This document shows, piece by piece, positions 51,541 through 63,854 of a DNA stretch of 64,000 nt. The translations under genes and the position numbers were made by a program. The DNA comes from Streptomyces hawaiiensis (GTDB lineage: Bacteria > Actinomycetota > Actinomycetes > Streptomycetales > Streptomycetaceae). The notes under the pieces were generated by a model, which was given only the letters and a program-made list of their open reading frames with translations, was not told the DNA's origin and did not search any database. Numbering within the stretch: the stretch's first letter is position 1; each line of letters starts with the position of its first letter. The stretch is taken from contig NZ_CP021978.1 of the NCBI RefSeq assembly GCF_004803895.1, positions 6,634,001 to 6,698,000 on the forward strand, read 5' to 3'.

Positions 51541-53127
51541 ATGTCGACCCGTCGGATACGAGGGGCCGCCGTCACGGCGGCGCTGGCCGCGGCGGTCACC
51601 GCCTGCTCGGCTCCCAGCGGCGGCTCGGGCGACGGCAAGTCCGCGGGGTCGGTCGTGCTCGGGGTGGCGTCCGAGCCGGACACCCTCAGCCCGCTGCTCG
51701 GCTACGGCAAGGACGGGAACTCCAAGATCTTCGACGGGCTCCTCGCCCGCGACGCCGACCTGAGGCTGAAGCCCGCTCTGGCGGCCGGACTGCCGAAGAT
51801 CACCGACGGCGGCCGCACCTACACCTACACCCTGCGCGACGGGGTCGAGTTCAGCGACGGCGAACCGCTGACGGCCGCCGACGTCGTCTACACGTACCGG
51901 ACCGCCCTCGACCCGAAGACCAACAACACCTTCAAGAGCGAGCTGGACGCCGTCAAGGACGTCCGGGCGAACGGCGACCACCAGGTCGTCTTCACCCTCA
52001 AGTACCCCTACGCCCCCTTCGCCGCCCGCACCGTGCTGCCCGTCGTCCCCGAGCACATCGCCGGCGAGCAGGACCCCAACACCGGCTCCTTCAACACGAA
52101 GCCGGTCGGCACCGGGCCGTACGTCCTCGCCGGCTGGAGCAAGGGCGAGAAGCTCACCTTCAAGGCCAACCCCCGCTACTGGGACGGCGAGCCGAAGGTG
52201 AAGACCTTCACCATGGCGGTCATCGGCGACGACAACGTGCGCGCCACCCGCCTGCGCTCCGGCGACCTCGACGGCGCGGTCCTCCCGCCCAACCTCGCCG
52301 CCACGTTCCAGGGCGACGACGCCAAGCGCACCTACGAGGCCCGGTCCTACGACTTCCGGGCCGTCACCCTCCCCACCGCGAACCAGGTCACCGGCGACCG
52401 CGCGATCCGGCGGGCCCTGGACGCCGCCGTGGACCGCGAGGCCATGGTCGACAAGATCCTCGACGGCGCGGGCCGCCCGGCGTACGGGCCGCTGCCCGTC
52501 GACGACCCCGCCTTCACCGAGGACATCGAGCGCGCCAAGGACCTCGGCAAGGCCGAGAAGATCCTTGACGAGGCCGGCTGGAAGCCCGGCAAGGACGGCA
52601 TCCGCGCCAAGGACGGACAGCGGGCGTCCTTCGACCTGCTCTACCCCTCCGGCGACAAGGTCCGCCAGGACCACGCCCTCGCCTACGCCTCCGACGCCAA
52701 GAAGGCCGGCATCGACGTGCGGGTGGAGAGCGCCACCTGGGAGGTCATCGAACCGCGCATGAAGGACGACGCGGTCCTCGCGGGCTTCGGCAGCACCGGC
52801 GACCCCGACTTCGGCCTCTACACCCTGCTGCACTCCTCCCTCGCCGGCGACGGCTTCAACAACATGGCCCGCTACGACAACCCCGCCGTGGACCGGGCCC
52901 TGGACGACGGCCGCCGCGGCCAGGACCCGGCCGAGCGCGAGTCCGCCTACGACAAGCTGCAACGCGCCCTGGTGCAGGACCCTGGCTACACCTTCCTCAC
53001 CCACATCGACCACCTCTACGTCCTGGCCGACCGCTGGGAGGGCCTGAACACCCAGCTGGAGCCGCACGAGCACGGCTTCGCCAGCGGCCCCTGGTGGAAC
53101 ATCGAGGACTGGCAGCCGAAGAAGTGA
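51541..53127 (+). CDS. ABC transporter substrate-binding lipoprotein (Dpp/Opp/Nik family)
   Basis: 528 aa. A short N-terminal signal (VTAALAAAVTACSAP) ends in a lipobox Cys. The mature part is an SBP_bac_5 family protein: GLLARDADLRLKPALAAGLP and LTAADVVYTYRTALDPKTN motifs. Bind oligopeptides, nickel, or metallophore complexes. First gene of a five-gene ABC operon in which every junction overlaps. Substrate not decided by sequence; context with ArsR and His-rich genes suggests a metal or metal-ligand complex. Confidence 0.88.
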   Translation: MSTRRIRGAAVTAALAAAVTACSAPSGGSGDGKSAGSVVLGVASEPDTLSPLLGYGKDGNSKIFDGLLARDADLRLKPALAAGLPKITDGGRTYTYTLRDGVEFSDGEPLTAADVVYTYRTALDPKTNNTFKSELDAVKDVRANGDHQVVFTLKYPYAPFAARTVLPVVPEHIAGEQDPNTGSFNTKPVGTGPYVLAGWSKGEKLTFKANPRYWDGEPKVKTFTMAVIGDDNVRATRLRSGDLDGAVLPPNLAATFQGDDAKRTYEARSYDFRAVTLPTANQVTGDRAIRRALDAAVDREAMVDKILDGAGRPAYGPLPVDDPAFTEDIERAKDLGKAEKILDEAGWKPGKDGIRAKDGQRASFDLLYPSGDKVRQDHALAYASDAKKAGIDVRVESATWEVIEPRMKDDAVLAGFGSTGDPDFGLYTLLHSSLAGDGFNNMARYDNPAVDRALDDGRRGQDPAERESAYDKLQRALVQDPGYTFLTHIDHLYVLADRWEGLNTQLEPHEHGFASGPWWNIEDWQPKK

Positions 53128-54116
53128 CCCGCCTCCCCTGGGGAGCGATGGCACGGCTGGCGGGACGGCGGGCCCTGTTCGCCGTCCCCGTCCTGCTCGT
53201 CGTCACCTTCGGCGTGTTCGCCATCGCCGCCGCCTCCCCGTTCGACCCCGTCAAGGCGTACGCCGGCACCTCCGCGCTCGGCGCCGACCAGCAGACCCTG
53301 GACCGGCTGCGCGAGAACCTCGGCGTGGACCAGCCCTTCGCCGCCCGCTGGTGGCACTGGCTGACCTCCGCGCTCAGCGGCGACCTCGGCCACTCCGGCG
53401 TCATGCGGCAACCGGTCGCCCAGGTCATCGGCGAACGGCTCGTGTGGTCCGCGCTGCTCTGCGCGGTCGCCTTCGCCGCCGCCGTGCTGGTGGGCACCCT
53501 CCTCGGCGTGCTCGCCGCCCGCCGCCCCGGCTCGCTCGTCGACCGGACCGTCACCTCCCTCGCCTACACCCTGGAGGCGGCACCCGTCTTCTGGATCGCG
53601 CTGCTCGCCATCTGGCTGTTCGCCCTCCAGTGGGACGTCCTGCCGGCGGGCGGCCTGACCGACACCGGCAGCGAACAGGTCACGCCCGGCCAGGTCACGA
53701 GCCATCTCGTCCTGCCCGCCGGCGTCCTCGCCGTGTCCCAACTGCCGTGGTTCACCCTGTACGTACGCCAGGGCGTCGGCGACGCCCTGGCGGAGGACCC
53801 CGTCCGCGGCGCCCGGGCCCGGGGCTTGAGCGAACGCACCGTCCTGCTCGGCCACGCCCTGCGCTCCGGGCTCCTGCCGGTGCTCACGCTCATCGGCTCC
53901 CGCGTCCCCGAACTCATCACCGGGGCGCTGCTGGTGGAGAGCGTCTTCAGCTGGCCGGGCATCGCCGCGGCCACCGTCGAGGCGGCCACCGCCGTCGACT
54001 TCCCGCTGCTCGCCGCCCTGACCACCCTGGCCACCGCCGCCGTCCTCGCCGGGAACCTGCTCGCCGACCTGCTCTACGGACTGTTCGACCCGAGGGTGAA
54101 GCTCAGTGACATGTGA
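53124..54116 (+). CDS. ABC permease (DppB-like)
   Basis: About 330 aa from the GTG at 53124, overlapping the substrate-binding protein's stop (GTGA). Six or so membrane helices, with the family EDPVRGARARGLSERTVLLGHALRSGLLP loop near residue 225 that contacts the ATPase, and an N-terminal LGVDQPFAARWWHWL periplasmic segment typical of DppB/OppB. Confidence 0.88.
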   Translation: MTRLPWGAMARLAGRRALFAVPVLLVVTFGVFAIAAASPFDPVKAYAGTSALGADQQTLDRLRENLGVDQPFAARWWHWLTSALSGDLGHSGVMRQPVAQVIGERLVWSALLCAVAFAAAVLVGTLLGVLAARRPGSLVDRTVTSLAYTLEAAPVFWIALLAIWLFALQWDVLPAGGLTDTGSEQVTPGQVTSHLVLPAGVLAVSQLPWFTLYVRQGVGDALAEDPVRGARARGLSERTVLLGHALRSGLLPVLTLIGSRVPELITGALLVESVFSWPGIAAATVEAATAVDFPLLAALTTLATAAVLAGNLLADLLYGLFDPRVKLSDM

Positions 54117-55005
54117 CGCACCGGCGCCCGCCGGCGCCCCGCAGAAGACCGCATGGCGGTCGCACGGACCGAAGCGCCGCTCCACCCGCGCCCTGCGCGT
54201 GCGCACCTCCGCCGTGCTGGTGGCCGCGACCGTCCTCGCCGTGCTGCTCGTGCCGCCGCTGGTCCAGCTCGACCAGCAGGCCGTCGACCTCGCCGCCAAG
54301 CTGCGAACGCCGTCCTGGTCCCACCCGTTCGGCACCGACGACGTCGGCCGCGACCTGCTGCTGCGCTGCGTCTACGGCCTGCGCGTCTCGCTGCTCGTCG
54401 GAGTGGCGGCGGCGCTGACCGCGACCGTCGTCGGCACAGCGGTGGGCGCGGCCGCCGGGGCGCTGGGCGGGTGGGCCGACCGGGCCCTGATGCGGGTGGT
54501 CGACACGTTCTCGTCCGTGCCGCATCTGCTGCTCGGCATCTTCATCGTCGCCATGTTCCGCCCCGGGGTGTGGCCGGTGGTGATCTCGGTCGCGCTGACC
54601 CACTGGCTGTCCACGGCCCGGATCGTCCGTGCCGAGGTGCTGTCGCTGCGGTCGCGGCCGTACGTCGACGCCGCCGTCTCCGGCGGGGCGTCCCGGTGGC
54701 GGGTGGCCGTACGGCACCTGCTGCCCGCCGTCCTTCCCCAGGCCGCGCTCGCCGCCGTGCTGATGGTGCCGCACGCCATGTGGCACGAGTCGGCGCTGTC
54801 CTTCCTCGGACTCGGGCTGCCCACGCACACGGCGAGCCTCGGCACCCTGATCCAGAGCGCCCGCGGCTCGCTCCTCGCCGGCCAGTGGTGGCCGACCCTC
54901 TTCCCGGGCCTCCTCCTCATCGTCCCGACCCTCGCCATCGCCGGACTCGCCGGGGCCTGGCGGGAGCGGATCCATCCCCGTCACCGATCGGAGCTGATGC
55001 TGTGA
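54106..55005 (+). CDS. ABC permease (DppC-like)
   Basis: 299 aa from a GTG within the previous gene (11-base overlap). N-terminal cytoplasmic segment, then about five or six helices. The loop after the second helix pair, HPFGTDDVGRDLLLR, and the YVDAAVSGGASRWRVAVRHLLPAVLP EAA-like loop identify DppC/OppC. Confidence 0.88.
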   Translation: MTCDAPAPAGAPQKTAWRSHGPKRRSTRALRVRTSAVLVAATVLAVLLVPPLVQLDQQAVDLAAKLRTPSWSHPFGTDDVGRDLLLRCVYGLRVSLLVGVAAALTATVVGTAVGAAAGALGGWADRALMRVVDTFSSVPHLLLGIFIVAMFRPGVWPVVISVALTHWLSTARIVRAEVLSLRSRPYVDAAVSGGASRWRVAVRHLLPAVLPQAALAAVLMVPHAMWHESALSFLGLGLPTHTASLGTLIQSARGSLLAGQWWPTLFPGLLLIVPTLAIAGLAGAWRERIHPRHRSELML

Positions 55006-55988
55006 GCGCCGGCATGGATGTCACCCCTGTGCTGTCCGTCCGCGGGCTCTCCGTGCGGTTCCTGATGCCCGCGGGGCGCCGTGTCGCCGCCGTCACCGAC
55101 GCCCGGTTCGACGTGGCACCCGGCGAGTGCCTGGCCCTGATCGGGGAGAGCGGCTGCGGCAAGTCCGTGCTGGCCTCCGCCCTGCTCGGGCTGCTCCCCG
55201 GCAACGCCCAGACCGCCGGCTCGGCCCTCCTCGGCGGCCTGGACCTGCTCACGGCCGACGAGCGGACCCTCGCACGCACCGTGCGAGGGCGGCTCATCGG
55301 CCTCGTCCCGCAGAGCCCGGCCGCCCACCTCACCCCGGTCCGCACCGTCCGCTCCCAACTGGAGGAGACCGTCGCGGCGTTGACCGCGACCCGGGGGCGC
55401 GCCGCCCTGCGGACCGCCGCCGAGGCCGCCGCCGAACGGGCCGCGTTCCCCGCGGACCACCTCGACCGCCACCCCCACCAGCTCTCCGGCGGACTCGCCC
55501 AGCGCGCCGCCACCGCCCTCGCCCTGGTCGGCGACGCGCCCCTGCTGCTCGCCGACGAACCGACCACCGGCCTCGACCGCGATCTGGTGGACCGTACGGT
55601 CGACGAACTGCGGCGGCACGTCGACGACCCGGGCGAGGGCGGCCGCGGCCGGGCCCTGCTGATGATCACCCACGATCTGGCGGCCGCCGAGCGCATCGCC
55701 GACCGGGTCGCGGTCATGTACGCCGGACGGATCGTCGAACTCGCCGACGCCGCCGCATTCTTCGGCTCGCCCGGGCCCCGCCACCCGTACAGCCGCGGCC
55801 TGCTCCAGGCCCTGCCCGAGCGCGCCTTCACCCCCATCCCCGGCATGCCGCCCGAGCTCGGCGCGCTTCCGGCCGGCTGCGCCTTCGCCGCCCGCTGCGA
55901 CCGGGCCACCGGCACCTGCGCCGCCCCGCCGCCCACCGGCACCGTCGCCTGCCACCACCCGTACGTGCCGGAGGACGTCCGTGCTTGA
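55002..55988 (+). CDS. ABC ATP-binding protein (DppD-like)
   Basis: 328 aa; GTG start overlapping the permease stop (GTGA). Walker A GESGCGKS (about 49-56), signature LSGGLAQR (LSGGQ variant), Walker B LLLADEPTTGLD and the C-terminal oligopeptide-transporter extension with a Cys-rich CAFAARCDRATGTCAAPPP (probably an iron-sulfur or zinc site, as usual for DppD-type). The cysteine pattern is intact. Confidence 0.88.
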   Translation: MSAGMDVTPVLSVRGLSVRFLMPAGRRVAAVTDARFDVAPGECLALIGESGCGKSVLASALLGLLPGNAQTAGSALLGGLDLLTADERTLARTVRGRLIGLVPQSPAAHLTPVRTVRSQLEETVAALTATRGRAALRTAAEAAAERAAFPADHLDRHPHQLSGGLAQRAATALALVGDAPLLLADEPTTGLDRDLVDRTVDELRRHVDDPGEGGRGRALLMITHDLAAAERIADRVAVMYAGRIVELADAAAFFGSPGPRHPYSRGLLQALPERAFTPIPGMPPELGALPAGCAFAARCDRATGTCAAPPPTGTVACHHPYVPEDVRA

Positions 55989-56634
55989 ACTGCGTTCCAT
56001 CACCGCCGGATACGCCGGGAACGCCCCGGTGGTCCGGGACGTGTCGCTGACCGTCGCGCCGGGCGAGTCCGTCGGCCTGCTCGGACCGAGCGGCTGCGGC
56101 AAGTCCACCCTCGCGCGGGTCGCGGCCCTGCTGCACCGCCCCGACTCCGGCACCCTGCTCCTCGACGGCGAGCCCGTGCGGCGCTGGCGCCACCGTGCCC
56201 CGCGCGACCGGCGCACCGCCTTCGGGATGGTCTTCCAGCAGGCCAGGCTCTCCGCGGACCCGCGGCTGCCGCTCACCGACCTGATCGCCGAGCCCCTGCG
56301 CGCCACCGGCCGCCGCAGGGAAGTCCCCGGCCGGGTCGCCGAGTTGGCCCCCGTCGTCGGCCTCACCCCCGACCTGCTGACCCGGCGGCCGCACGAGGTC
56401 AGCGACGGGCAGCTGCAACGCGCCTGTCTCGCCCGGGCGTTGGTGCTGCGCCCGCGCCTGCTGGTGTGCGACGAGATGACCGCGATGCTCGACGCCTCGA
56501 CGGCCGCCGCCCTGGTCGCGGCCGTCGAGGACTACCGGGCCGCGACCGGCGCCGCCCTGCTGGCCGTCGGCCACGACCGCGTCCTGCTGGAGCGCTGGTG
56601 CGACCGCACCGTCCACTGGGGCGGCCTGACCTGA
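55981..56634 (+). CDS. ABC ATP-binding protein (DppF-like, short)
   Basis: 217 aa; GTG start eight bases inside the DppD-like gene. Walker A GPSGCGKST, Walker B LLVCDEMTAMLD. The signature is VSDGQLQR instead of LSGGQ, and the C-terminal oligopeptide extension is absent, so it is shorter than DppF (about 320 aa). It probably pairs with the DppD-like protein, with one degraded ATP site (inference). Confidence 0.82.
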   Translation: MLELRSITAGYAGNAPVVRDVSLTVAPGESVGLLGPSGCGKSTLARVAALLHRPDSGTLLLDGEPVRRWRHRAPRDRRTAFGMVFQQARLSADPRLPLTDLIAEPLRATGRRREVPGRVAELAPVVGLTPDLLTRRPHEVSDGQLQRACLARALVLRPRLLVCDEMTAMLDASTAAALVAAVEDYRAATGAALLAVGHDRVLLERWCDRTVHWGGLT

Positions 56635-56640
56635 GAGGCG

Positions 56641-56952
56641 CTACTCCTGCGCGTGCCGGATGGCGTCCAGCACGATGTGCGCCACGTGGTCGTCGGTGAG
56701 GGTGTACCGCGTCTCGCGGGCCTGACGCCGGGCGGTGACGATCCGGGAGGTGCGCAGCACCCTCAGGTGCTGGGAGACCAGCGGCTGGCTCACGCCCAGG
56801 GCCGCCACCAGTTCATGGACGTACTTCCCGCCGCCCGACAACTCGCGCACGATGCCCAGCCGTACGGGGGAGGCCAGAGCGCGCAGCAGCTCACTGGCCG
56901 CCTGCAGGGTCGGGTCCGGCTCGTCCGTCGGGTGAGAGGGCGTCGTTGTCAT
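56641..56952 (-). CDS. ArsR/SmtB-family metal-sensing repressor
   Basis: 103 aa winged helix. The recognition helix is QPLVSQHLRVLRT. The C-terminal alpha-5 helix has D87-x-H89, H100 and E103, the exact spacing of the SmtB/CzrA zinc site (D-x-H-x10-H-x2-E). No Shine-Dalgarno precedes the ATG. A TAATGT -10 (minus strand, 56959-56964) lies seven bases upstream of the A of ATG, so the transcript is predicted to be leaderless. Stops six bases from the ABC operon end (convergent). Confidence 0.87.
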   Translation of the reverse strand: MTTTPSHPTDEPDPTLQAASELLRALASPVRLGIVRELSGGGKYVHELVAALGVSQPLVSQHLRVLRTSRIVTARRQARETRYTLTDDHVAHIVLDAIRHAQE

Positions 56953-56978
56953 ATGCGCACATTAGCATGTGACAACGA
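56943..56978 (-). promoter_or_regulatory. Large palindromic ArsR operator over its own start
   Basis: TCGTTGTCATATGC (56943-56956) and GCATGTGACAACGA (56965-56978) are complementary except one base, with an 8-nt spacer. It spans the arsR -10 element and start codon: an ideal autorepression site. Confidence 0.75.
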
Positions 56979-56984
56979 TTTCCA
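56970..56984 (-). promoter_or_regulatory. Zur-box-like element 1
   Basis: TGACAACGATTTCCA fits TGnnAAnnnTTnnCA, the pattern of the actinobacterial Zur box (S. coelicolor consensus core TGAAAATCATTTTCA; about 11 of 15 bases agree). It overlaps the outer arm of the ArsR operator, -18 to -32 from the arsR start. Confidence 0.45.
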
Positions 56985-57013
56985 GTTCACTCCCTCGCCG
57001 GGGGCGGAACCTG

Positions 57014-57313
57014 TCAGTGGTCGTCCCAGTGTCCCTCGTGGGCGGCGTGGCGGTGGCCGTCGTGCACGTAGTCCGTGTGGTCGTCGTGGCGTACGGCCAG
57101 ATGGCCGCAGTCGTCACCGTGCTGGTGGTCGTGGTTCCGGTGCACCGCGTGGCCGCCGTTCGCGCACTCGTCGGCGTGGTCCTCGTGCATCCGGTGGATG
57201 TGGCCGTCGTGGGCGTAGTCGGTGTGGTCGCCGTGGGGGAAGGCGAGGTGGCCGCAGTCGTCGCCGTGGGCGTGCGCGTGGTCCTCGTGGGTGATGTGCT
57301 CGGCGGTGGTCAT
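57014..57313 (-). CDS. Histidine-rich metal-binding protein with internal repeats
   Basis: 99 aa, start at ATG 57313 with GAGGAG seven bases upstream. 27 histidines, four acidic CxxH-type spots: two tandem units of about 45 residues share HGDDCGHLA, DHTDY-HDGH and HxxHE elements. No signal peptide, so an intracellular zinc/nickel-binding store or chaperone is likely. It precedes arsR in the same direction by 61 bp and shares promoter motifs with it. Confidence 0.8.
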   Translation of the reverse strand: MTTAEHITHEDHAHAHGDDCGHLAFPHGDHTDYAHDGHIHRMHEDHADECANGGHAVHRNHDHQHGDDCGHLAVRHDDHTDYVHDGHRHAAHEGHWDDH

Positions 57314-57374
57314 GGTGGTGCTCCTCGTGTGTGCTGGTGGCCGCCCGAGGTGCTTCGGTCGGGCGGGCATGGCG

Positions 57375-57409
57375 ACATTAACATATAGCGATCCCTGCAT
57401 GTATTGTCG
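57375..57409 (-). promoter_or_regulatory. Promoter/operator of the His-rich gene
   Basis: ACATTAACATAT (57375-57386) matches ACATTAGCATGT in the arsR operator (56959-56970) at 10 of 12 bases. On the minus strand CGACAA (57404-57409) and TATATG (57382-57387) with a 16-base gap form a candidate -35/-10. An inverted CGACA/TGTCG pair frames the region. Confidence 0.5.
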
Positions 57410-57473: not shown

Positions 57474-58232
57474 CTAGCGCACCGCCACGACCACGCAGCT
57501 GTCGCCGTACTGCCACACCGGGCCGGCCGTGCCGAAGCCCGCCTGCCGGAGCAGCTCGAGGTGGGCGGAGAGGGAGAGTCCGGCGGGGGTGTCGAGGGGG
57601 GCTTCGCGGCGGCGGCGCTCGGCCAGGAGGTCGGTCAGCTCCGGGTCGTCGCCGACCGCGGCCCACCAGGAGCCCCAGTCCTCGTGCGCGAACGCCCGCT
57701 GCCGGGCGGCCCGGCAGCGCCCGACATGGGCGGCGATCCCGGCCGGGCCGGTCTCGCCCTGGGGGAGATGGTCACCGTTGACGAGGACGCCTCCGGGACG
57801 CAGCAGCGCGGCGAGCTGCCGGTAGGTGTCGAGCAGGGTGTCGCGGTCGAGGTAGTGCAGGGCCGTCGTGGAGACCGCCGCGTCCAGGGGCCGGTCCAGA
57901 TCCAGGGCCCATACCCAGCCGGGCGCGCCGATCTCCGCGTCGACGTAGCGGGCCGCGTCCGGGTGGTGGGTGCGGCCCAGCTCCAGCAGCAGGGGATCCC
58001 GGTCCACGGCCACGATCTCGGCGTCCGGCAGCCGCCGGATCAGCCGGGCCGCGAGGGAGCCGGGCCCACAGCCCAGGTCCACGACGAGGGGCGGGGTCAC
58101 GCGCCCCGCCGTGACGTGCTCGACGACATCGGCGATCACCGTGAACCGCTCCTCGCGGTCGACGGCGTACCGCTGCTGCTGGAGCTCCCAGCGCTCCACC
58201 CATCGCTCCGCCGTCGCCATGCTCAGCCCCAT
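57474..58232 (-). CDS. Class I SAM-dependent methyltransferase
   Basis: 252 aa. Motif I VVDLGCGPGSLAARL (about 49-63), motif II DRDPLLL, motif IV LDAAVSTTALHYL and motif V-type GGVLVNGDHL. Start is the first of two ATGs (58232; 58220 is also possible). Lies between the metal-regulated genes and the PLP/sulfur operon, with a Zur-box-like palindrome 57 bp upstream. Substrate unknown; could modify the product of the sulfur operon (inference). Confidence 0.8.
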   Translation of the reverse strand: MGLSMATAERWVERWELQQQRYAVDREERFTVIADVVEHVTAGRVTPPLVVDLGCGPGSLAARLIRRLPDAEIVAVDRDPLLLELGRTHHPDAARYVDAEIGAPGWVWALDLDRPLDAAVSTTALHYLDRDTLLDTYRQLAALLRPGGVLVNGDHLPQGETGPAGIAAHVGRCRAARQRAFAHEDWGSWWAAVGDDPELTDLLAERRRREAPLDTPAGLSLSAHLELLRQAGFGTAGPVWQYGDSCVVVAVR

Positions 58233-58288
58233 CCGGTCGCGCCACCTCGCCGTCTCGCACCTGACTCATTCCGGTCCGAGCCTACAGG

Positions 58289-58303
58289 TGGAAACGGTTC
58301 CCA
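58289..58303 (-). promoter_or_regulatory. Zur-box-like element 2
   Basis: TGGAAACGGTTCCCA, a 7-1-7 near-perfect palindrome of the form TGnnAAnnnTTnnCA, lies 57 bases before the methyltransferase start, at the end of the desulfurase gene's downstream gap. Agrees with the Zur pattern at fixed positions, less well at the centre. Confidence 0.45.
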
Positions 58304-58322
58304 TTACGCCTGGTCGGCGGTG

Positions 58323-59519
58323 TCACGGGAGTGAGGCGAGAACCGACAGCAGCCGGTCGATCTCCTCAACCGTGTTGTACACATGCAGACTCACCCGCAC
58401 CGAACCGGTCTTCTCGCCCGCGTCACCCTGGCAGTGATGGTCGGAGCGGACCATGAACCCGTGGCTGAACAGGATGAACCCCAGGTCGCCCGAGTCGATG
58501 GCGCGGTGCCGCAGAGTCACGATGCCCTGGCGGCGCTGCACGGTCGTGTCGGCGGCCAGGCTGAGCGGGCAGCCGAGGATCTCGTAGGCGTCCAGCCGGC
58601 GCAGCCCCTCGGTGAGCCGGGCCGCGAGGTCGGCCGTCCAGCGCTCGATCCGGTCGACACCGGCCGCCTCCAGCCAGTCCAGGGCCGCTTCGAGCGAGGC
58701 GATGCCCACGGTGTTCGGGGTGCCGCTCCACCCGCCGGGCACGAACGCCGGCCCGCGCGCCTGCCGGGCCCACACCGCCCCGGAACCGGGCAGGGCCAGC
58801 GCCTTGTGCCCGGAGAACACCACGAAGTCGACATCCAGCTCCGCCACGGACACCGGCAGATGACCGACGCTCTGCGCGGCGTCCAGACAGATGACCGCGT
58901 CCGGGCCGACGGCCTCGCGGATGCGCTGCACGTTCATGTCGCTGCCGTAGACGTGGTGCACATGAGTGGTGGCGACGAACCGGGTGCGCGGGCCCGCCCG
59001 TTCGGTCAGCGCCCGGTGGTCGTAGTCCCCGGAGCCGCTCTGGTACGGCATCGGCACCACCCGGACGTGCACGCCCTCCCGGTCGAGCAGCCGCTGGACC
59101 TCCAGCCAGGGCGTGATGTTGGCCTGGTGGTCGGCGTCCGGTACGACGATCTCGTCGCCGTCGCGCAGGAAGCCCGGCAGCCAGTCGCGGGCGATGCTGC
59201 GCAGCCCCTCGGTGGTGCCGCCGGTGAAGTGGACGGCGGAGTGCTCCGGCCGGTCGTCCCCGAGGAACCGGGCCACGCGCCCGCGGGTCCGCTCGACCAG
59301 CTCCGTGGTGCGGTTGGCCCAGGTGTAGGTGCCGCGCGCGGCGTTGGCGTTGGACGTGGTCAGATACGTCTGCACGGCGTCCAGGACGGCCTGCGGCTTC
59401 TGTGCCGTGGCCGCGCTGTCCAGGTACGCCAGCTCGGGGTGCCCGGTGACGATGGGGAACTGGGCGCGCAGCGCCTGCTGCCACGGGCGCGGATCCTCGC
59501 GGGTGATCGGTGCGGTCAT
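58323..59519 (-). CDS. Class V aminotransferase, SufS/CsdA-like cysteine desulfurase
   Basis: 398 aa. PLP enzyme with GGTTEGLRSIA, an HQANITPW segment, the Schiff-base lysine in SGHKALALPGSG and the sulfur-accepting cysteine in RSDHHCQGD (C363, same place as E. coli SufS C364). It would take sulfur from cysteine. ATG at 59519, five bases after the preceding gene's stop. Third gene of the sulfur/PLP operon; no suf genes nearby, so a specialised role is likely. Confidence 0.85.
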   Translation of the reverse strand: MTAPITREDPRPWQQALRAQFPIVTGHPELAYLDSAATAQKPQAVLDAVQTYLTTSNANAARGTYTWANRTTELVERTRGRVARFLGDDRPEHSAVHFTGGTTEGLRSIARDWLPGFLRDGDEIVVPDADHQANITPWLEVQRLLDREGVHVRVVPMPYQSGSGDYDHRALTERAGPRTRFVATTHVHHVYGSDMNVQRIREAVGPDAVICLDAAQSVGHLPVSVAELDVDFVVFSGHKALALPGSGAVWARQARGPAFVPGGWSGTPNTVGIASLEAALDWLEAAGVDRIERWTADLAARLTEGLRRLDAYEILGCPLSLAADTTVQRRQGIVTLRHRAIDSGDLGFILFSHGFMVRSDHHCQGDAGEKTGSVRVSLHVYNTVEEIDRLLSVLASLP

Positions 59520-59524
59520 GCCGG

Positions 59525-60844
59525 TCAGTCCCGCACCAGGGGCGCGCCCGCGTCCCGCCAGGCGATGATGCCGCCGGCCAGGCTGCGCACGTCCGGGTGG
59601 CCCATCCGGGTCAGCAGCGCCGCGTACCGGGCGGACTGCTCGCCCACCGGGCACGCCAGCAGGACCGGCTGACGGCGGCTGAACGGCAGCCCGCCCCGGA
59701 CGAGTTCGGCGAACAGCTCGTCGACGATGTTGACCGATCCGTCGATGTGCAGCGCCGCGTAGGCGTAGGAGCTGCGCAGGTCGACCACGAGGGGCCGGTC
59801 GGTCTCGATCCAGCGCCGGGCCTCGGCCACGGTGACCGACGGCGCCTCGCCGACCTCGGCGTCGGACAGGTCGGCCGGCGAGTTCTGCCGGGGCGGCCGG
59901 CCCAGCAGATCGGGCCGCCGCTGCCGGACGTAGCTCAGATAGCTCTCCACCCGGTCACAGACGATGAACACCGCGGTCCGCCGCTCCTGCGACTCCTCCT
60001 CCAGCGCCCGCAGATGGCGGACGGCGCCGAAGTAGGCGGCGCCTCCGGTGGGCCCGCCGAGGATGCCGCAGCGGCGGTTCAGGGTCAGCATCCCCTCGAT
60101 CGCCTCGTCGGCACTGACCGACTCCATCGTGTCGTACGTCTCCGGGTCGAACAGGCCGACCTCCTGCACCTCGTCGATGGTGCGGATCCCCGGGATGAAG
60201 TCGGACTTGGCCGCGACCAGACCGACCACCCGCACGGACGGGTCCTCCTCCCGCAGGGCGCGGGCGACCCCCGTGGAGGAACCGGCCGTGCCCACGCAGG
60301 CGACGAACCAGTCCGGGACCCGGCCGTCCAGGTCCTTGACGATCTCCGGCCCGGTGCCGGTGAGATGGGCCTCGGTGTTGCGCGCGTTGAAGTACTGGTC
60401 GGTGTGCAGATAGGCGCTGCCCGAAGCGGACAGCGTCCGGTGGAAGAGGGTCAGCGGATCGTCCGTGGCGGTCGGGTCCAGGCACTCGCTCTGCCCCGGC
60501 AGCTCCTCGATCTCCGCGCCGAGCAGCAGCAGGAGGTCCTTGATCTCCGGGACCCGCATCCGGTTGGTGACGCTCTTGAAGCCCAGGCCGTGCATGCCCG
60601 CGATGACGGCGAGGGCCTTGGCCGTGTTGCCGCTGGACAACTCGACCACCTGACTGCCCTGTTCGACCGCCTCGGCGAGCAGGGGCTCCGCCATGCTCCA
60701 GGCGGCCCGGTCCTTGACCGAGCCGAACGGGTTGAGCATTTCGAGCTTGGCGTACAGATCGATGGTGCGCAGGCCGTGCACCGCCGGGTCTATCCGCACC
60801 AGAGGGGTGTTGCCTATCGCCTCGGTGATGCTGTCGTACCTCAC
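59525..60844 (-). CDS. Cysteine synthase-type PLP enzyme fused to rhodanese
   Basis: 439 aa. Residues 1-320: fold-II PLP enzyme with GNTPLVRI, the PLP lysine in GSVKDR (K44), SSGNTAKALA and GGPTGGAAY. It resembles CysK/SbnA-type enzymes. Residues about 345-439: a rhodanese domain with active-site loop CPVGEQS (C398). A sulfurtransferase fused to a cysteine-synthase-like enzyme is unusual. GTG start overlaps the decarboxylase stop (GTGA). Confidence 0.85.
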   Translation of the reverse strand: MRYDSITEAIGNTPLVRIDPAVHGLRTIDLYAKLEMLNPFGSVKDRAAWSMAEPLLAEAVEQGSQVVELSSGNTAKALAVIAGMHGLGFKSVTNRMRVPEIKDLLLLLGAEIEELPGQSECLDPTATDDPLTLFHRTLSASGSAYLHTDQYFNARNTEAHLTGTGPEIVKDLDGRVPDWFVACVGTAGSSTGVARALREEDPSVRVVGLVAAKSDFIPGIRTIDEVQEVGLFDPETYDTMESVSADEAIEGMLTLNRRCGILGGPTGGAAYFGAVRHLRALEEESQERRTAVFIVCDRVESYLSYVRQRRPDLLGRPPRQNSPADLSDAEVGEAPSVTVAEARRWIETDRPLVVDLRSSYAYAALHIDGSVNIVDELFAELVRGGLPFSRRQPVLLACPVGEQSARYAALLTRMGHPDVRSLAGGIIAWRDAGAPLVRD

Positions 60845-62307
60845 TGAGCTCCCCTCAAGGGCGTGATCGGCCAGAACTGGTCGTCCAGGCACCAGCGCCA
60901 CGCGTCGCCGTCCTGCCAGGCGGCGACCTTGCGGGCGGCGGGCTGGTGCTGGGCGCGTGTGGCGTGGAAGTCCATGGCGTAGCCGGCGGTGTTGGCGAAG
61001 GCCAGCAGGTCGCCGGGTTCCGGGCGGCGCGGCAGGAACACCGTGCGCCGGGTGATCAGGTCGGTCTCCAGGCAGAGGCTGCCGAAGAGGTGCACGGCGA
61101 CGGGCCCTCCGCCCGGACCGGCTCCGCCGCGGGGGATGACGACCGGGTCCATCAGCACCCCGTGGTCCTCCAGGGCGATGTCGTCCGCCTTCGCGGCCAG
61201 CCGTACCAGCAGTTCCCCGCCGGTGTCCTGGGCGCGGACCTCCAGGACCCGCGCCAGCGTGAGTCCGCACTGGTCCAGCAGTGCCCGGCCGGGCTCGGTG
61301 TGCAGGTCGTACAGGTGCTCCAGCAGCAGCGCGGCCAGCGGGCGCCCGCCCAGCGAGGCGGCGGGCTGGGCCAGCAGCTCGTCCAGGTAGGCGGCGCCGG
61401 CGACGGACCGGTGGGCGGGGTAGAGACCGAGCGTGCCGCGCAAAGTGCCGGACTCGTTGCGCAGCCCGTAGCCGTGCCCGCCCCAGGTCAGCGGGGGGCG
61501 CCGGCCGAGGACGGCTTCGGTCAGCCCGGTCGTGTACGCCTCCCAGTGCTCCCGCTCGGCGAGGTAGCTGATGCCGAACCCGCCGCCGATGTCCACGGCC
61601 CGCGGCCGCAACCCCCGGCTCCGGCACAACTCCAGTGCGGCCAGGCTCCCTTCGAGGGCGGTCGCCTTCTCCGCGACGCTCGTCGTGTCCAGATGGAAGG
61701 CCACCCCCGCCGGATCGACCGCGTCGGCATGCCGCTCCGCCGCCTCCAGCAGCAGCTCCAACTCCCCTACGGGCGTGCCGAAGCGGCTGCGCCGGCTCAG
61801 CACTTTCACGCCCGTCGTCTCGAAACCCGACAACCGCAGCAGCACCCGCACCGGGGCGAGCGCGTGCTTGCGGACCAGGGTGGCGAGCTGGTCCAGCTCG
61901 GCGACGGCATCGACGCTGACCGTGACGCCCGTACGCGCCGCCAGCCACAGGAACTCGGGGTTCTTCGGCCCCGTGGCCGTGATCCGGCCGGCGCCGAAAC
62001 CGGCACCCAGCGCGTGCTGCAACTCACCCAGCGACGCGACGTCCACGCCCGCGTCCGTCGCGGCGAGCCGCCGCAGCAGCGCACTGGACCGGTTGGCCTT
62101 GTGGGCGTAGAAGACCTGCCCCGACAGATGGTGCGCCCGGTACACCGACCGGAACCGCTCCAGGTTCTCGGCGATCTGGTCCGGCACCACGACGTGCAGG
62201 GGTGAGCCGAGCCCGTCGGTGAGCGAGTGCAGCGTGTTCTGCGCCGCCACGAGCGACCTCAGTCGTGGCTCCAGCCGCGGTTCGAGATACAAGGGCCGGC
62301 CGTCCAT
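60841..62307 (-). CDS. Y4yA-type fold-III PLP decarboxylase
   Basis: 488 aa, ATG at 62307 with AGGAGGGGGAG upstream. Alanine racemase/LysA-like fold III: PLP lysine in FYAHKAN (K70), DIGGGFGISY (about 245) and the C-terminal beta domain LFGSLCLETDLI. Looks like diaminopimelate/ornithine decarboxylases but with family features of Y4yA proteins, found beside a cysteine-synthase homologue in Rhizobium NGR234. First gene of the operon. Substrate unknown. Confidence 0.8.
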   Translation of the reverse strand: MDGRPLYLEPRLEPRLRSLVAAQNTLHSLTDGLGSPLHVVVPDQIAENLERFRSVYRAHHLSGQVFYAHKANRSSALLRRLAATDAGVDVASLGELQHALGAGFGAGRITATGPKNPEFLWLAARTGVTVSVDAVAELDQLATLVRKHALAPVRVLLRLSGFETTGVKVLSRRSRFGTPVGELELLLEAAERHADAVDPAGVAFHLDTTSVAEKATALEGSLAALELCRSRGLRPRAVDIGGGFGISYLAEREHWEAYTTGLTEAVLGRRPPLTWGGHGYGLRNESGTLRGTLGLYPAHRSVAGAAYLDELLAQPAASLGGRPLAALLLEHLYDLHTEPGRALLDQCGLTLARVLEVRAQDTGGELLVRLAAKADDIALEDHGVLMDPVVIPRGGAGPGGGPVAVHLFGSLCLETDLITRRTVFLPRRPEPGDLLAFANTAGYAMDFHATRAQHQPAARKVAAWQDGDAWRWCLDDQFWPITPLRGAQ

Positions 62308-62780
62308 GCGCGCTCCCCCTCCTGAGGCCGCCGCACCCGGCATCCGGGCACGTCGGACACTCCCCGCGTTTCGCCGTATAGCCCATATCCATTCTTCGGT
62401 CGCTTTACGCCCTGTAAGGCCCGGGCCTGTCCCGTTGCCGGTGTGAAGCGGATCACGGGCCGCACCCGCAGCGCGCGCCGGGCGCGAGCCGACGGCATCC
62501 GCCGAGCGGCCGAGCACCCTCGCCGTTACCGGGTCGCGCCGTTCGCCGCCGTAACGGGAGAAGCGGTCGTCCTCGTCGTCGACGAGGGGGACATGGTGGG
62601 TCGGATCCGACGTGCCAGGAGCGTGAGCGGGCCCGGCGGCGCATGCCGCTCCTCGCGGAGACCGTGAGCCGTCCGCCCCGGGTGCGGTGGCGGCGTCACG
62701 GTCGCCATCGGCCGCACACATGCGCGTCCCCTGCCGGGGTACCCCGGCCGAAACCGGCACCGAACCGTCCGAGGAGGGAC
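62308..62780. promoter_or_regulatory. Divergent promoter region
   Basis: 473 bp between the PLP operon and the mannose-6-phosphate isomerase-like gene. On the minus strand a CTATACGG motif (62375-62381 region) in AT-rich sequence could be the -10 of the PLP operon. The inverted repeat CCGTTAC-N21-GTAACGG spans 62523-62557. No gene. Confidence 0.4.
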
Positions 62781-63854
62781 GTGGACTGGCATCCGCTGCG
62801 GCTGACCACCCCCGTCAAGCAGCACGTCTTCGGCGGGCGGGCCATCGCCGAGCGGCTGGGTCGCACCGGCCTGCCCGACGGCCCGATCGCGGAGACGTGG
62901 GAGGTCAGTGACGTCGACGGTGACGCCTCGGCCGTCCTCGACGGCCCCCTGGCCGGGCGCACGCTGGGCCACATCATGGCCGAGCACGCCGAGGAACTGC
63001 TGGGACCGCACCCGCGCCCCGGCCCCCGCTTCCCGCTCCTCACGAAGTTCATCGACGGCAGCCGTCCGCTCCCGGTCCATCTGCACGCCGACGACGCCAC
63101 CGCCCGGCGGCTGGAGGGCGAACCCAACGGCAAGACCGAGGCCTGGCACGTCCTGGACGCCGCCCCGGGAGCCACCGCCCTGGTCGGCGTACACCCCGGC
63201 GTCGACCGCGACGGCCTGCACCGCGCGCTGCTCGCGCAGGGCTTCGACGCGGTCATGCGCCGCCTGCCGGTCCGCGCCGGCCAGACGGTCTACGTCCCCG
63301 GCGGCACCCTGCACAGCTTCGGTCCGGACACGCTCGTGTACGAGATCGAGCAGACCTCCGACATCCAGCAGCACGCCATGCGCAGCCACATGGAGGACGG
63401 CTCGCCCGTGCCCGACCGGGAGTGGCACACCAACCTCGCCCGCCTCCTCGACGAGTGGCGCCCCGAGCCCCGGCCCGAGTTCCACCCGGGTCTGAGTATC
63501 CCCCTGGACGACGGCGTCGCACGCACGGTGCTCTGCGCCGGCCCGCACTTCGCCCTCGAACGCTGGGCCGCCGGCACCAGGACGCCCCTGGTGCACACCT
63601 TCTCCACCGTGCGGATCCTCACCAACGTCGGCTCCCCGGTCACCGTCACCTCCGGCCCCTGGACCGGCCCCCTGGACCGCGCCCGCACCCTCCTCCTGCC
63701 CGCCGCCCTCGGCGAGGTCCGCGTCCAGGGCCCCGCCGACGTGCTGATCGGCTACGTCCCCGATCTCCACCGCGACATCCGCGCCCCGCTCCTGGCCGCC
63801 GGTCACGGCCCTGCCGCCGTCGCCGCCCTCGGCGAGGGGCTCGGTCCGCGGTAG
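62781..63854 (+). CDS. manA: Type I mannose-6-phosphate isomerase-like protein
   Basis: 357 aa from GTG 62781 (GAGGAGG just upstream, short spacing). Cupin-type phosphomannose isomerase: PLPVHLHADD (zinc His) near residue 96-105, GKTEAWHVL near 116-124, and a PGGTLHSF catalytic region near 172-180 with a later YEIEQ. It interconverts mannose-6-P and fructose-6-P. Divergent from the PLP operon. ManA is a zinc enzyme, the only link to the metal theme (inference). Confidence 0.83.
   Translation: MDWHPLRLTTPVKQHVFGGRAIAERLGRTGLPDGPIAETWEVSDVDGDASAVLDGPLAGRTLGHIMAEHAEELLGPHPRPGPRFPLLTKFIDGSRPLPVHLHADDATARRLEGEPNGKTEAWHVLDAAPGATALVGVHPGVDRDGLHRALLAQGFDAVMRRLPVRAGQTVYVPGGTLHSFGPDTLVYEIEQTSDIQQHAMRSHMEDGSPVPDREWHTNLARLLDEWRPEPRPEFHPGLSIPLDDGVARTVLCAGPHFALERWAAGTRTPLVHTFSTVRILTNVGSPVTVTSGPWTGPLDRARTLLLPAALGEVRVQGPADVLIGYVPDLHRDIRAPLLAAGHGPAAVAALGEGLGPR

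Follow-up and report, generated by a model that had tools for sequence, protein, structure and literature searches.

A conserved sulfur-type gene cassette of Streptomyces with a possible tie to the zinc-starvation regulon

Results

Gene layout and conservation

The stretch analyzed here (the window; 64,000 nt of Streptomyces hawaiiensis contig NZ_CP021978.1, positions 6,634,001 to 6,698,000) comes from a one-contig genome of 8.88 Mb and carries four minus-strand genes that form the subject of this work. They are abbreviated D (Y4yA-type decarboxylase), C (CysM-like enzyme with rhodanese), S (SufS-like desulfurase), and M (methyltransferase), which is also their order of transcription. Coordinates are those of the window.

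60841..62307, minus strand: D, Y4yA-type pyridoxal phosphate (PLP) fold III decarboxylase, 488 amino acids (Pfam Orn_Arg_deC_N, 95.5 bits)
59525..60844, minus strand: C, CysM-like PLP beta-replacement domain with a C-terminal rhodanese domain, 439 amino acids (PALP, 184.7 bits; Rhodanese, 58.8 bits)
58323..59519, minus strand: S, SufS-like class V cysteine desulfurase, 398 amino acids (Aminotran_5, 256.7 bits)
57474..58232, minus strand: M, S-adenosylmethionine-dependent methyltransferase, 252 amino acids (Methyltransf_25, 49.7 bits)

Domain matches and coordinates agreed with the original prediction, which had described the first three enzymes as joined by overlapping or near-abutting junctions, with a methyltransferase beyond them. 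D and C overlapped by 4 nt (GTGA), the GTG start of C overlapping the stop of D; C and S were 5 nt apart, and S and M were separated by 90 nt. Judged from this spacing, D, C, and S are predicted to be co-transcribed; M has a Zur-type box of its own (see below) and probably its own promoter. Among the matches listed, none of the four proteins reached a curated NCBIfam cut-off.

The nearest named relatives of D were from Streptomyces. D orthologs (more than 60% identity) were present in 14 of 37 genomes of the genus and in none of 24 other genomes of a first sample. A scan of named genomes gave 293 stretches encoding D relatives; the best 80 of these formed the locus set, and all 80 were examined, with flanks of at most 10 kb per side. 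In every one of the 80, D was followed on its own strand by C and S; a copy of M lay within 10 kb in 78 (the misses were L088, at a contig end, and L102, not at one). Because this arrangement is conserved, the layout is not due to chance. The genome-context check thus bore out the prediction of a conserved, non-standard set: since D, C, and S were together in every locus, the independent occurrence in relatives that had been named as grounds against it was not what we observed.

C with its rhodanese domain was found in 93 of 392 genomes of the genus (weakest match E = 2e-249, with nothing between there and the limit of 1e-120). M orthologs, defined by at least 299 bits, occurred in 96, and 90 of these also had C (Fisher test, P = 4e-77, uncorrected for relatedness). 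The M cut-off was chosen by eye, and the scores showed no sharp gap; the six genomes just below it (G268, G139, G090, G248, G204, and G358; 237–267 bits) were all without C, and a separate paralog family scored lower still. Six genomes above the cut-off had M only, of which three were accounted for by contig ends (G157), a decayed cluster (G132), or a broken M (G120), and three had no such explanation (G071, G208, and G353). The decayed copy (L177, in G132) consisted of a D fragment beside an S remnant, with M present and C not found. In a phylum sample, C was present in 5 of 396 genomes, three from the same genus (host genome included) and two from another family of the same class.

Family membership and catalytic residues

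Residue conservation was assessed in 13 aligned family members. Positions were assigned from alignments with SufS and CysM proteins of solved structure and from the general enzymology of these families, which also gives the roles of the fold III lysine and the C-x-E motif of D. D was 30–33% identical to annotated Y4yA family plasmid proteins across 92–96% of its length, and K70 (the PLP lysine), the EPGR motif, and the C-x-E motif (C412, E414) were invariant in 13 of 13. The solved structures nearest to C by sequence were CysM/OASS-B proteins, 3dwg and 3dki among the matches, and its PLP lysine (K44), CysM-type arginine, and rhodanese cysteine (C398) were kept in all 13. C scored below the cysteine-synthase cut-offs (cysKM, 177.5 vs. 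344 bits; CysM, 173 vs. 413 bits) and below the SbnA equivalog cut-off (145.8 vs. 349.95 bits). The best NCBIfam match of S was the SufS subfamily (263 bits, below the cut-off of 475), and S lacked approximately 20 residues present in SufS. Seven residues of S (K239, H131, D213, Q216, R358, C363, and R375) were invariant in 13 of 13; they include the lysine that binds PLP, the catalytic cysteine, and the two arginines for the substrate. By regular expression, the motifs of D were recovered in 68 and 74 of the 80 loci, the rhodanese-loop motif of C in all 80 and its PLP-lysine motif in 74, and the cysteine motif of S in 78.

Zur-type boxes

Three putative regulatory elements were considered, two of which resemble binding sites of the zinc regulator Zur.

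58289..58303, minus strand: Zur-type 7-1-7 box TGGGAACCGTTTCCA, between S and M, 71 nt before M
56970..56984, minus strand: Zur-type box TGGAAATCGTTGTCA, before an ArsR-type gene
62360..62419, minus strand: element conserved upstream of D (GGGCGTAAA ... CTATACGGC), seen in the aligned or listed regions and not a Zur box

The box before the ArsR-type gene is the Zur-like box that the original prediction had located beyond the set; the one before M had not been named. According to PMC5472717, chromatin immunoprecipitation (ChIP) gave tGaNNatSatNNtCa as the S. coelicolor Zur motif, and an older actinobacterial motif is taaTGaNAANNNTTNtCANta. The ChIP motif and an AT-rich version of it were scanned first before D only, and little was found. 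A wider scan surfaced the box before M, from which a tailored palindrome and then the scan pattern TGRNAAYNRTTNYCA were made. Because the pattern was composed after the M box had been seen, it has to be validated by which genes its remaining sites in the genome precede.

The window contained two exact matches of TGRNAAYNRTTNYCA, 1.3 kb apart (none in 100 shuffles), and the whole genome contained seven (none for a control pattern). Of these seven, one precedes a ZnuA/AztC-like gene followed by an ATP-binding cassette (ABC) ATPase and one a second AztC/ZnuA-like gene; the others lie before a FecB-like binding protein, a NikA-like binding protein, ArsR, and M, and one has no clear target (all family matches of these genes are under curated cut-offs, and the FecB-like match is weak). 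This recovery of metal-uptake genes is an independent check of the pattern.

Across the locus set, an exact box (TGRNAAYNRTTNYCA or published motif) was found within 250 nt upstream of M in 59 of 78 loci, of the ArsR-type gene in 9 of 13, and of D in 1 of 79, and within 250 nt before C or S in none of 80. For comparison, 4000 windows of 250 nt placed at random in these loci gave 49, the boxes themselves included, and rough control genes gave 1 of 9 (ManA-like), 0 of 9 (AcDH), 0 of 7 (importer binding protein), and 0 of 24 (His-rich protein). In total, the 80 loci (1.6 Mb) contained 74 exact matches of TGRNAAYNRTTNYCA and the control stretches described below (0.8 Mb) none. The 7-1-7 palindrome before M is nearer the older motif; its core matched at 10 of 10 positions in 58 of 78 loci, starting 69–100 nt before M, against a background of 40 in 8000 random 130-nt windows that included some of the M sites. 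Genome-wide, the ChIP motif gave 103 sites at one mismatch or fewer (control, 18), six of them exact (L162, L167, and L168 were inspected).

In Streptomyces scabichelini (L070:4783-9707), a non-ribosomal peptide synthetase gene and a methyltransferase gene lie directly upstream of D with a Zur-type box at one mismatch, a coelibactin-like arrangement at a guess.

Zinc-related neighbors

According to PMC6103462, families of the Zur regulon include znuABC, yciC/COG0523, and ribosomal protein paralogs. The zinc markers counted in the flanks were ZnuA-like proteins, Fur-family regulators, COG0523, bL28, bS14, bL31B, bL32, and a His-rich protein, with ArsR excluded. They were found in 30 of 80 loci vs. 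0 of 40 control stretches (P = 7e-7), the controls being arbitrarily placed 20-kb stretches from five relatives and the host genome; without the His-rich protein the counts were 11 of 80 vs. 0 of 40 (P = 0.015). The arrangements differed among loci. L083 and L087 each had a Fur-family regulator together with a ZnuA-like binding protein (in L087 also with an ATPase), and Fur-family regulators lay beside the cassette in L084 and L109; the Fur-family protein of L083, the one scanned, matched Fur/PerR only, under the cut-off. COG0523 was accompanied by bL28, bS14, and bL31B in L077, L107, and L125, and by bL28, bS14, and bL32 in L096. bL31B occurred near the cassette in L106 and L110, and bL32 in L109 and L124. 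Together with the boxed M genes and the metal-uptake genes at other box sites, these counts support the tie to zinc suggested originally.

Two further genes of the window are associated with the cassette.

57014..57313, minus strand: His-rich small protein, 99 amino acids, no family match
56641..56952, minus strand: ArsR/SmtB-type metalloregulator, 103 amino acids (NF033788, 79.9 bits, above the cut-off)

Of the 80 loci, 24 had the His-rich protein close to the cassette, in varying places and on varying strands, and 13 had the ArsR-type gene. As an obligatory part of the cassette the His-rich protein was rejected (9 of 14 genomes with D vs. 14 of 23 without); it is notable by adjacency only. 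Similar imperfect repeats (ACATTAxCATxT, by eye) at 56955-56985 and 57370-57392 precede the ArsR-type and His-rich genes and may be ArsR operators adjoining the Zur-type box. A mannose-6-phosphate-isomerase-like gene, divergent from D (62781-63854), had counterparts close to D in 9 of the 80 loci, and in Streptomyces aidingensis (L084:15818-16909) a NifS/IscS-like cysteine desulfurase, identified by eye, lies near the cassette.

Transport genes

An ABC importer lies at 51541-56634 on the plus strand, beyond the His-rich and ArsR-type genes. The original prediction had mentioned it as lying in the neighborhood; as a partner of the set it was rejected. Its binding protein was present in 7 of 14 genomes of the genus with D vs. 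8 of 23 without (Fisher test, P = 0.49), and among the 80 loci it appeared in the flanks of 8, each of them closely related to the window. NikA-like binding proteins with Zur-type boxes elsewhere in the genome were considered as partners as well; 8 of the 14 genomes with D and 9 of the 23 without had a member of the family (P = 0.33), and the closest ortholog of the L199 protein occurred in 6 of 14 vs. 3 of 23 (P = 0.057). For two such proteins, in L199 and L162, the Zur-type box lies at the start or a short distance upstream of it, and these two are possible zincophore importers.

In L096, L112, and L124 (3 of 80 loci), S and M are separated by genes for an ATP-grasp ligase and a major facilitator superfamily (MFS) protein. 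The ligase is above the PRK07206 cut-off and has a weaker match to dapdiamide synthase. The two genes hint at an amide-bonded, exported product in these loci. In L189, from another family, a gene for a DHA2-type exporter starts 4.6 kb before D and has an exact Zur-type box upstream; the methyltransferase gene beside S also has an exact Zur-type box, and D has an in-frame stop codon.

Comparison of D-C-S loci with SbnA/SbnB clusters

For comparison, 83 D-clade loci (the 80 described and three from two genomes of another family, with the interrupted D of L189 counted as present) were set against 11 Y4yA/SbnA loci, seven from Streptomyces (L041–L047) and four from plasmid records. The rhodanese domain and S were present in 83 of 83 D-clade loci, and SbnB (tblastn), MATE, and TauD were each absent from all 83. 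In the Y4yA/SbnA loci, SbnB was present in 10 of 11 and MATE in 9 of 11, the SbnA-like protein had no rhodanese domain, and rhodanese or S was found in 0 of 11. Between the two cluster types, sulfur modules and nitrogen modules are thus swapped.

Scanning with the iron-box consensus gave iron-box-like sites in 6 of the 7 Streptomyces sister clusters at four mismatches or fewer and in 7 of 7 at five or fewer, none in the 80 D-clade loci, and none in the 40 controls. A Zur-type box at one mismatch or fewer was found in none of the seven. L194 and L195 were left out of the box scan; L193 and L196 had one Zur-type site each at one mismatch, and L196 also had one iron-box-like site. Because both boxes and gene content differ, the Streptomyces clusters fall into two branches, SbnA/SbnB among iron boxes vs. 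sulfur-type enzymes among zinc genes. The split would fit the donor preferences of hard and soft metals.

The seven sister clusters (D2-SbnA-SbnB-TauD-MATE, with no MATE seen in the short L042, and mostly with a NikA-like importer) probably encode an uncharacterized iron metallophore. In L190 (12063-13172) and L191 (5022-6311), both from another actinobacterial family, the gene between S and D encodes a protein whose sole family match is a C-terminal HMA domain (CopZ-like).

Discussion

The reading that we favor, with a probability of approximately 0.5, is that D-C-S-M may act in biosynthesis as a cassette linked to the Zur (zinc-starvation) regulon, its product most likely a small sulfur-containing amine or thioether. 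Judging from families and conserved residues, S would take sulfur from cysteine as a persulfide, which the rhodanese domain of C would accept; the CysM-like domain of C would then transfer the sulfur to an activated serine unit at its beta-carbon. Decarboxylation at the alpha position by D would yield an aminoethanethiol (cysteamine-type) unit, and M would methylate the product or a precursor at low zinc. The product would probably serve as a zinc ligand, either secreted or internal. On this scheme, the cassette would do with sulfur what the SbnA-SbnB-decarboxylase module does with nitrogen in making the diaminopropionate/ethylenediamine units of known metallophores. The narrower proposal of a dedicated, aminoethanethiol-based zincophore is tentative: here, fusion of rhodanese to the beta-replacement enzyme and recruitment of a desulfurase would have replaced nitrogen donors for iron with sulfur donors for zinc. 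The original interpretation as a whole is therefore partly supported. Its gene set and its hint of zinc are right and stronger than stated there, and its thio-compound or metallophore route is likely as a route type; that the product is a metallophore, or is not cysteine, is something we infer.

Several observations weigh against the zinc-linked cassette as set out above. No Zur box lies before D in the window, and boxes at one mismatch or fewer were found before D in 6 of 79 loci (random windows, 74 of 4000); because D is rarely boxed, D-C-S may not be under zinc control. The M box has mismatches at 4 of 11 positions of the ChIP motif and 2 of 10 of the older motif (the znuA-like site of the host genome has 3 of 11 and 1 of 10), so that its assignment to Zur depends on the company of its sites. 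Marker queries were partly chosen from these same loci, and because the loci are related, 30 of 80 overstates the number of independent cases; 16 of the 24 loci with the His-rich protein are close kin of the window. A Zur-type box at one mismatch or fewer was absent from L190 and L191. No importer was shown to track D, and a similarity search with the MFS protein gave no exporter in 77 of the 80 loci, other exporters not having been searched. The AlphaFold prediction of C was poor (mean predicted local distance difference test score, 58.8) and uninformative on a sulfur relay. Finally, if S feeds C from cysteine, free phosphoserine or acetylserine as acceptor would simply return cysteine, so that C must use another acceptor.

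The lack of a transporter shown to track the cassette, together with the zinc-sparing ribosomal protein paralogs among its neighbors, is what an internal role would lead one to expect, in which a low-molecular-weight thiol or sulfur-relay branch replaces zinc-dependent steps at zinc shortage and no zincophore is secreted. Mycothiol enzymes need zinc. We consider this explanation somewhat doubtful: the ATP-grasp ligase and MFS protein between S and M in three loci suggest export in some lineages, as does the Zur-boxed DHA2-type exporter of L189. Kinship of D with the Y4yA decarboxylases adjoining SbnA/SbnB, and the 145.8 bits that the SbnA model gives C, would instead suit a nitrogen-type metallophore, with C adding an amino nucleophile to phosphoserine as SbnA does and S replacing SbnB as a transaminase- or lyase-like helper. 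This is unlikely, given that CysM models outscore SbnA on C (173 bits), that rhodanese is kept on C and SbnB missing in every D-clade locus, and that the desulfurase cysteine of S is retained in all 13 aligned members.

The metal could also be copper or another soft metal instead of zinc, as the CopZ-like protein between S and D in the two unboxed loci of another family would suggest; the regulatory and neighborhood evidence from Streptomyces points to zinc and makes this quite improbable. Least credible by far is ordinary cysteine biosynthesis. C and S do belong to cysteine-metabolism superfamilies, but C occurs in only 93 of 392 genus genomes, the two genes keep constant company with a decarboxylase and mostly with a methyltransferase, and, among the matches listed, their proteins fall under every cysteine-synthase and desulfurase cut-off.

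About a quarter of the sampled genomes of the genus (93 of 392) carry this zinc-linked cassette. Should the product be a thiol zinc ligand, it would represent a new chemical class of bacterial metallophore, with donor-atom switching by module swap; should internal sulfur metabolism be the answer, zinc shortage and sulfur handling would prove to be linked in streptomycetes in a way not suspected before.

In the accessible parts of the open-access literature on Y4yA, EDDS/aminopolycarboxylates, Streptomyces Zur boxes, and Streptomyces zincophores, no paper recognizably described the D-C-S-M set (PMC6103462, PMC5472717, PMC3973906, PMC10486106, and PMC12161575 being among those consulted), and the same held for the corresponding parts of papers on rhodanese/cysteine synthase clusters, on Zur with desulfurase and decarboxylase, and on Sbn enzymes; those on Y4yA gave no pathway. 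According to PMC6103462, ethylenediamine disuccinate (EDDS) in Amycolatopsis japonicum and coelibactin in S. coelicolor are Zur-controlled small-molecule routes. The cassette would share with both an actinomycete small-molecule setting tied to Zur; it differs from coelibactin, which has been described as non-ribosomal.

The Y4yA/SbnA/SbnB clusters of Streptomyces and of the Mycobacterium avium, Agrobacterium vitis, Sulfitobacter, and Nocardia farcinica plasmid records share the decarboxylase family of D (approximately 30–40% identity) but differ in having SbnB and mostly MATE, in having neither rhodanese nor S, and, in the Streptomyces ones, in their iron-box-like sites. The SbnA-SbnB-SbnH module of staphyloferrin B makes 2,3-diaminopropionate and then an ethylenediamine unit. 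It resembles D-C-S in that a PLP beta-replacement enzyme adjoins a fold III PLP decarboxylase, whereas D-C-S is without SbnB, includes rhodanese and S, and has Zur-type boxes near M and no iron boxes. In Mycobacterium tuberculosis, CysM takes protein-bound sulfur from the carrier CysO. C has a CysM-type domain as well, but its candidate sulfur carrier is the fused rhodanese domain, and the partner of that carrier would be the SufS-like enzyme.

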